Part shown: positions 39,367 through 39,666 of the stretch, piece by piece
Layout: each line of letters opens with the position of its first letter
How positions within the stretch are numbered: the stretch's first letter is position 1
Source of the DNA: Oscillospiraceae bacterium
GTDB taxonomy: Bacteria; Bacillota; Clostridia; Oscillospirales; CAG-272
Reading direction: 5' to 3'
Assembly (NCBI GenBank): GCA_015064555.1
Contig: SVRZ01000021.1
Span: 1 to 39,666 of the forward strand
DNA length: 39,666 nucleotides
Made by a program: the position numbers and the translations under genes
Notes under the pieces: generated by a model
What the model was told of the DNA's origin: nothing
Databases searched by the model: none
Seen by the model: the letters and a program-made list of their open reading frames with translations, nothing else

Positions 39367-39450
39367 GCGGGAGTGGCGGAACTGGCAGACGCGCACGTTT
39401 GAGGGGCGTGTGGTTTTACCGTACGGGTTCAATTCCCGTCTCCCGCACCA
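39367..39450 (+). tRNA. tRNA-Leu (anticodon GAG)
   Basis: Acceptor stem GCGGGAG pairs with CTCCCGC, discriminator A, encoded CCA (39448-39450). The anticodon stem CACGT/GCGTG holds the loop TT-GAG-GG, so it reads CUC and CUU. The long variable arm and T-arm GGGTTCAATTCCC are those of a class II tRNA-Leu. It has its own promoter and terminator. Confidence 0.96.
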
Positions 39451-39451
39451 A

Positions 39452-39490
39452 CAAAAAGAGAACTTTTGTCTACCAAAAGTTCTCTTTTTG
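39452..39490. terminator. Terminator of tRNA-Leu
   Basis: 17-bp perfect arms CAAAAAGAGAACTTTTG (39452-39468) and 39474-39490 around a 5-nt loop, ending in CTCTTTTTG. Symmetric, so it could act on both strands. Confidence 0.88.
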
Positions 39491-39495
39491 TTTAT

Positions 39496-39666
39496 CCAAG
39501 CCGCAGGCTTGGCATATCATCGCCGCGCGAAGCGTGGTGGATATCATCAGCCCCTGTGGGGCTGGATCTCATCACGCGCCAGCGTGTATCTGCCTGCGGT
39601 TTGATGATATACCGCAACAAGTTGCGGATGATATACAATGCTTCGCATTGATGATATACACGCCTT
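39496..39666. repeat. Array of short hairpins with conserved ATATCATC / GATGATATAC spacers
   Basis: At least six hairpins of different sequence: 39496-39512 (CCAAGCC stem), 39523-39537, 39549-39563 (AGCCCC), 39573-39586 (CACGC), 39612-39627 (CCGCAAC) and 39636-39650 (CAATGC), with a further start at 39660. Stems are 5-7 bp with 2-4 nt loops. Spacers are nearly constant: CATATCATC, GATATCATC and GATCTCATC on the left, GATGATATAC three times on the right, which is the reverse complement. Orientation flips around 39590. There is no ORF of note and no CRISPR-like constant repeat. The array continues past the window edge. Confidence 0.8.

Follow-up and report, generated by a model that had tools for sequence, protein, structure and literature searches.

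Several described systems come close to the locus considered here. REP repeats have a conserved stem, and REP/BIME clusters bind gyrase at operon ends. The Avd and IVP proteins share a four-helix-bundle pentamer fold. In the passages of PMC4990558 drawn on here, the 23S rRNA intervening sequence (IVS) of Coxiella is called a selfish element, its open reading frame (ORF) is preceded by tandem GACAGAT heptamers, S23p proteins are said to have no known function, and both what S23/IVP proteins do and what role rRNA intervening sequences play are stated as unsolved.

The window (the whole stretch of DNA that was analysed) is 39,666 nucleotides of contig SVRZ01000021.1 from an Oscillospiraceae bacterium, and its last 217 bases form a hairpin ladder: a terminator, a hairpin A, three hairpins, a centre and the right-hand hairpins. 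The ladder adjoins the 3' end of a tRNA-Leu (GAG) gene on the same (+) strand (39367..39450; ARAGORN and Rfam tRNA). The left end of the unit is a perfect 19-bp hairpin with an A-tract and a T-tract (inverted repeat at 39450..39492), which is intrinsic-terminator-like from both sides. It leads into a TTTATCC junction (39491..39497, +), which marks the left end in the GATGATATAC spacer family and serves to orient arrays. On the + strand there follow hairpin A (AAGCC GCA GGCTT, 39498..39510), the 5' half of which is complementary to the centre A', and the hairpins h1 (39522..39538; 7 bp, with two G-T pairs on the + strand), h2 (39549..39563) and h3 (39574..39585), preceded, respectively, by left spacers 1 ((C)ATATCATC, 39513..39521), 2 (GGATATCATC, 39539..39548) and 3 (GGATCTCATC, 39564..39573), the words of which are ATATCATC, ATATCATC and, a single base off, ATCTCATC. 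The spacer orientation flips at 39586-39602, a stretch that includes the centre A' (CCTGCGGTTT, 39593..39602, +), noted by inverted repeat, fold and covariation, which pairs with the AAGCCGCAGG of hairpin A through complementary bases and one G-T pair. Right spacers 4 (39603..39612), 5 (39627..39636) and 6 (39650..39659), all GATGATATAC on the + strand, alternate with h4 (CGCAACAAGTTGCG, 39613..39626), the stem of which is identical in several relatives, h5 (AATGCTTCGCATT, 39637..39649) and the start of h6 (ACGCCTT, 39660..39666), the seventh hairpin past the terminator. The contig stops within h6; thus, the promoter and any IVP gene of the kind that relatives carry are beyond the window.

The array (39491-39666) is as an earlier note had described it, with hairpins of variable stem and near-identical spacer that follow the tRNA-Leu, switch strand near 39590 and run off the edge; the complementarity of A' to hairpin A went unmentioned there. 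That note could name no class of repeat for the array, a judgement that has held: Rfam 15 at the gathering score reports tRNA alone at the window end and at the eight loci searched, and the open-access literature, searched for the word, for repeats together with IVP proteins and for arrays of hairpins near tRNA genes, includes no description among the matches listed. Chance is an unlikely source of the array, as it holds three exact copies of GATGATATAC against 0.18 expected (0/100 shuffles reach three) and has a folding z-score of -7.8 (0/200 shuffles equally stable), with the terminator hairpin included in the folded stretch.

The word is dispersed in the genome, the genus and the order, and the search of genome and relatives that had been suggested earlier finds the array to be far from unique. 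The genome of the window (G000) holds GATGATATAC 47 times compared to four times for a reversed-word control, and, as judged from the stretches read and the window, 37 of the 47 words belong to arrays and the other 10 stand alone. A GATGATATAC-N13-GATGATATAC unit with a 13-nt hairpin occurs in 12 of 30 genus genomes, and the two-word pattern in 17 of 197 order genomes (15/111 genera), the genome of the window included in both counts. A scan of one genome per species yields at least 118 stretches, which by their titles are nearly all from gut or rumen Clostridia and Oscillospiraceae assemblies; a few (Krumholzibacteriota, Cloacimonetes and Chitinophagaceae) are possible chance matches. Near a tRNA-Leu ladder in the same genome, a tandem 42-bp array (C11:19445-19706) alternates 9-nt and 13-nt hairpins with GATGATATAC between them. 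At six loci (L135:1090-2080, L020, L033, L093, L125 and L136), two co-oriented ladders occur within a span of about 1.7 kb, and the first of these loci has the order tRNA, ladder, intervening stretch, terminator, ladder. The two-word pattern is also present on 24 viral stretches, 23 of which by eye have no hairpin between the words and one of which (L360) does. Carriage of ladders by phages is rejected on the basis of these 23 hairpin-less stretches and of the phage records, among which a related IVP protein (43-51% identity) is found in 2 of 50,697.

The arrays have a fixed address relative to tRNA genes. Of 168 arrays parsed, 97 are orientable through a TTTATCC-like end, while the 71 unorientable arrays stay outside the counts. 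The commonest pattern among the 97 is three words, a flip and three words. For 52 of the 97, a tRNA gene lies no more than 150 nt away; in all 52, which include many kinds of tRNA, the nearest tRNA ends 53-67 nt upstream of the first word on the same strand. Each of the eight loci searched with Rfam has a tRNA, seven of them at this distance. For the 43 ladders that precede IVP genes, nine of which come from loci chosen for the word, a tRNA is upstream in 19, and 22/22 tRNAs are co-oriented. Other hairpin-rich tandem modules also reside 3' of tRNA genes (L155, L158, L159, L164 (genome of the window), L215, L221, L222 and L228); in two of these, L155 and L159, the module by eye includes repeats of a portion of the tRNA 3' end.

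Set against a MITE, which is defined by terminal inverted repeats and a target-site duplication, the unit has two ends that differ in sequence. At the right end, a promoter-like TTGAT and -10 box are detected in 32 of the 83 arrays with a tail of at least 60 nt, by a scan that allows one mismatch in the -10 box and tries spacings of 15-19 nt. The spacing between TTGAT and the -10 box is exactly 17 nt in 30 of the 32; thus, the last hairpin ends in the predicted -35 box of the next gene. A separate motif, TTTACGCACCTTTT, is found beyond the right end of the ladder on the strand pointing away in 9 of 72 arrays with room for it (L033, L040, L047, L063, L067, L094, L107, L124 and L137) and in none on the other strand, two mismatches being allowed, and is sometimes doubled about 31 nt apart. 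At 9/72 arrays, this distal motif is set aside as the right end of the unit.

The gene that follows a number of GATGATAT arrays encodes a protein that starts with M-x-KNY and matches PF05635/TIGR02436, with 2rld as the sole match at E 0.01 in a PDB sequence search. Of the fetched loci, 17 match this IVP by tblastn, and 15 of these have the IVP gene within 200 nt of the right end of the array, and many other array copies are followed by genes other than IVP. When PF05635 is searched irrespective of arrays, IVP genes are carried by 28 of 30 genus genomes, and a strict ladder is upstream of 31 of 61 genus IVP genes (82 PF05635 rows, of which 15 were without upstream DNA, weak fragments or unfetched and 67 were examined; six of these had less than 250 nt upstream). 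Ladders are in excess before IVP genes compared to the controls, which give 6/249 for other genes with an intergenic stretch, 6/1407 for windows and 0/1220 for shuffles; as the control contigs were picked for GATGATAT arrays and those arrays were excluded, the controls measure other ladders, and several of the six control matches resemble real ladders. The 31 ladders carry 21 word labels, which include overlapping registers of one word, and the GATGATAT type accounts for three of these ladders. The earlier note had suggested a search for an associated transposase or RNA-binding gene; a linked gene does exist, but it is that of the PF05635 protein, whereas a Y1 transposase (7/30 genus genomes) is not general. 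The other 30 genus IVP genes fail the strict ladder test, and the rate drops to 6/28 at order-level loci (2/30 being too short) and to 0/27 at phylum-level loci (2/29 being excluded); thus, IVP proteins need no ladder. Some ladder-less IVP genes (L278, L279, L283, L306 and L321) have plain tandem short words upstream that by eye recall the Coxiella heptamers.

The word tracks the protein sequence of the IVP. Among pairs of IVP proteins of at least 60% identity, 26 of 73 share a word, compared to a permutation mean of 7.3 and a maximum of 22 in 2000 permutations. This comparison uses 34 ladder-bearing IVP proteins from the family search, nine order-level loci of which were hand-picked before the word filter, and drops 25 pairs with near-copy flanks; several of the non-sharing pairs differ at one word base (ATGATG vs GTGATG). 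The words shared by similar IVP genes may reflect common descent of one linked unit. Two IVP genes are found in the genome of the window, both with ladders (words TGAAAT and GCGATA); the MxKNY-type IVP that partners GATGATAT is not among them in this assembly, which is 82% complete. At the order level, in the genomes common to the PF05635 and array searches, PF05635 is present in 10/10 array-positive genomes versus 60/136 others, the genome of the window excluded (Fisher p 4e-4, which ignores relatedness). Of seven putative cargo proteins encoded past the IVP gene, one is a clear NUDIX, one falls below the cut-off and five have no match.

The stems of the ladders vary yet mostly stay paired, with compensation. 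The stem finder favours Watson-Crick pairs and its stem percentages are therefore flattering (by its rule, 45 of 377 between-word segments have no hairpin), so distinct 13-nt units are used instead. All five pairs are Watson-Crick in 64 of 92 such units, while 28 are without full pairing; shuffles of the 3' arm give a mean of 2.1 and a maximum of 8 (n = 1000). Where two units differ at no more than a single stem pair, both bases are changed in 366 comparisons and one base in 127. The compensatory change that the earlier note read from constant spacers and self-complementary, variable stems is, thus, borne out, and its proposed covariation test finds stem pairing to be kept in relatives. Hairpin A and the centre A' match over a mean of 8.9 nt in 82 arrays, compared to 5.0 nt for swapped partners (maximum 5.8 over 200 swaps), with classes that include AAGCCGC/GCGGCTT, ATTGCGA/TCGCAAT, AAGTCGC/GCGACTT and ATTACGG/CCGTAAT. 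In other word families, where the anchor is automatic, the match is weak, reaching at least 7 nt in 8 of 35 (swapped mean 2.4, maximum 6). Inversion of the word is the rule: in 33 of 35 windows upstream of IVP genes with at least three same-strand words, the reverse complement occurs outside the run, compared to three for the merely reversed word, so that the two halves could pair as had been supposed from the window.

Wobble pairs are few and favour neither strand of the whole unit, in numbers too small to exclude RNA. On the window-like strand, unique segments have 23 G-T versus 15 A-C pairs, with G-T:A-C ratios of 19:6 in the left half and 4:9 in the right. When each half is read on its ATATCATC strand, the ratio becomes 28:10 in favour of G-T, a lean that may stem from shared descent. 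In other word families, G-T pairs number 12 versus 7 A-C (left 6:5, right 6:2). The few wobbles with no whole-unit strand preference speak for DNA over RNA, without settling the question. A strand-specific RNA signal is set aside, as the lean switches strand between the halves and is unclear in the other families.

These data bear on a reading in which the ladder is a structured non-coding RNA, transcribed by read-through from the tRNA or on the opposite strand from the right up to the terminator, with hairpins that bind IVP or another partner and with pairing selected in the RNA. The compensatory stems, the long-range A-A' pairing, the low folding energy and a terminator hairpin that has both an A-tract and a T-tract are consistent with such an RNA, as is the description of S23/IVP genes in transcribed rRNA insertions in the cited part of PMC4990558. 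However, the ladder is placed downstream of a terminator and ahead of the next gene's promoter, no Rfam family is found, and the wobbles are few, with A-C pairs, which an RNA should shun, at 15 versus 23 G-T and at 7 versus 12 in the other families (one strand), and with a G-T lean that changes strand between the halves. A transcribed RNA is on balance unlikely.

Ladders of the same plan are built on other words, which include TCGATAT (on C35 of the window's genome), AGTGATA, ATGTAAT, ATGAAAT, ACTTCAT and TGAAATC. A second detector, which required just a word and then its reverse complement, gives 101 matches, which include A/T runs and GC-rich chance matches; nine other-word matches were read, and one of them, L073:2940, lacks the appearance of a ladder. 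At L013, a TCGATAT ladder by eye splits a terminator hairpin that is intact elsewhere in that genome. The tRNA-Leu (GAG) of the window was traced in 69 genus genomes with a match in 62, and 27 loci were read, 22 of them with a flank of at least 230 nt. A strict ladder is found at 6 of the 22, with the GATGATAT word in two, ATGAAA in two, ATGAAG in one and an ATATAA type in one, while others by eye have a weaker ladder, an unrelated hairpin module or neither. In G028, the tRNA is followed by a ladder that has its own terminator and then by a second terminator, which by eye is like the tRNA-adjacent terminator of G038; BLAST misses this likeness and aligns only stretches farther downstream, and about 790 bases of G038 are absent from G028. 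In G002, a ladder and an IVP gene precede a stretch that in G034 follows another module. These comparisons span different species, among which no empty and filled site pair of one strain was seen; G038 versus G028 is the nearest, and a target-site duplication is not established in that comparison.

The ladder may also be viewed as a transcription insulator or nucleoid landmark, an intergenic spacer maintained by the host between a tRNA operon and the next promoter. Its constant place between terminator and promoter agrees with such a role, as do the 30 of 32 promoters that keep 17 nt to a -35 box formed by the end of the last hairpin. A host-maintained spacer is nevertheless quite unlikely, since the same tRNA in sister species has unrelated words, other modules or no ladder, the words are many and patchily distributed, and a link to IVP genes would be unexpected. 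A further reading is a DNA-replication by-product, in which palindromes would arise and multiply at tRNA terminators through template switching on hairpins, with no protein partner. The palindromes are mostly perfect and turn over, tandem arrays such as C11:19445-19706 exist, and tRNA 3' flanks hold further hairpin-rich repeats. What such a by-product leaves unexplained are the constant words inverted between the halves, the A-A' match and the IVP link, which make it very unlikely.

Short words beside hairpins, head-to-head arrays and an intergenic site at operon ends also recall REP-like elements moved by a Y1 transposase (RAYT or IS200/IS605) that reads a hairpin and a short flanking word. 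This origin is highly improbable: Y1_Tnp is detected in 7 of 30 genus genomes and was not found in G000 or G015, both rich in arrays and both incomplete assemblies (for G000, the search used PF01797 in the 82% complete assembly), and the stems of the ladders are not conserved, unlike those of REPs. A Y1 transposase is, thus, rejected as the general partner.

The ladder is instead proposed to belong to a small mobile element, as its non-coding portion; the element would target tRNA 3' ends and be served by an IVP protein. To this reading, with mobility and binding as its conjectural parts, we give an even chance. One unit comprises the terminator hairpin, hairpin A, three hairpins with a word w, the centre A', further hairpins between which w is reverse-complemented and an outward promoter, after which full copies carry the PF05635 (S23/IVP four-helix-bundle) gene. 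The unit is predicted to insert between the 3' end of a tRNA and the next gene. The IVP protein, or a complex that includes it, may recognise the words, with the hairpins and the A-A' clamp serving to present them. Given its position between terminator and promoter and its few wobbles, which favour neither strand of the whole unit, the ladder would probably fold as DNA, either single-stranded or cruciform. Turnover of the stems could proceed through hairpin-templated copying (palindrome correction) combined with selection for pairing. Copies with no adjacent IVP gene may have been moved by an IVP encoded elsewhere or may be leftovers.

A broader and more tentative extension, which we hold to be possible though somewhat less than probable, is that S23/IVP proteins are the specificity factors of a class of mobile elements for which the literature search gave no description. 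Each subfamily would read its own inverted word on a hairpin ladder, the stems of which would be free to change if paired, and would thereby direct copying or insertion of the unit to genes for structured RNAs, here at tRNA 3' ends and elsewhere in 23S rRNA helices. A genus with IVP in 28/30 genomes and with 31/61 tested IVP genes behind a ladder whose word tracks the protein provides a concrete substrate on which to test IVP function. The ladders are also a natural case of nucleic-acid structure that is preserved during sequence turnover.

Compared to known systems, the ladder shares with CRISPR a regular alternation of constant and variable parts; by contrast, the constant part of the ladder is the word between hairpins, the variable part is the hairpin, and the words invert mid-array. 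Like the ends of IS200/IS605 elements, it combines a hairpin with a short guide-like word and a potential for single-strand folding, but it has many hairpins rather than one per end, and the Y1 transposase was not found in its own genome. With the diversity-generating retroelements (DGRs) that have Avd, it has a protein superfamily in common; however, RVT_1 occurs in just 5 of 30 genus genomes, on which ground a reverse transcriptase is rejected as partner, and that of G000 (C13:4828-5454) lies away from the IVP genes. In G015 (C18:5972-7526), a reverse transcriptase gene with a weak, below-cut-off IVP/Avd-like match just before it is perhaps a DGR. REP/BIME clusters with RAYT resemble the ladder as intergenic palindromes at operon ends in head-to-head arrangement, yet the ladder differs in its variable stem (a single spacer family has 92 distinct 13-nt units), its constant spacer, its A-A' match and the lack of a Y1 gene in 23 of 30 genus genomes. 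Like the 23S rRNA IVS as described in the cited passages of PMC4990558, the ladder is associated with a PF05635/TIGR02436 gene (in relatives, as the window copy is cut off before the position of the gene), inverted repeats that surround the element, a structured RNA gene and short repeated words before the ORF. The ladder could, alternatively, be counted as the non-coding part of IVS-type elements. Unlike the 23S rRNA IVS, it is located 3' of tRNA-Leu (and, in relatives, of many tRNAs) rather than inserted in a 23S rRNA helix, it has hairpins with inverted words, and the IVP gene linked to it comes with its own promoter-like sequence.
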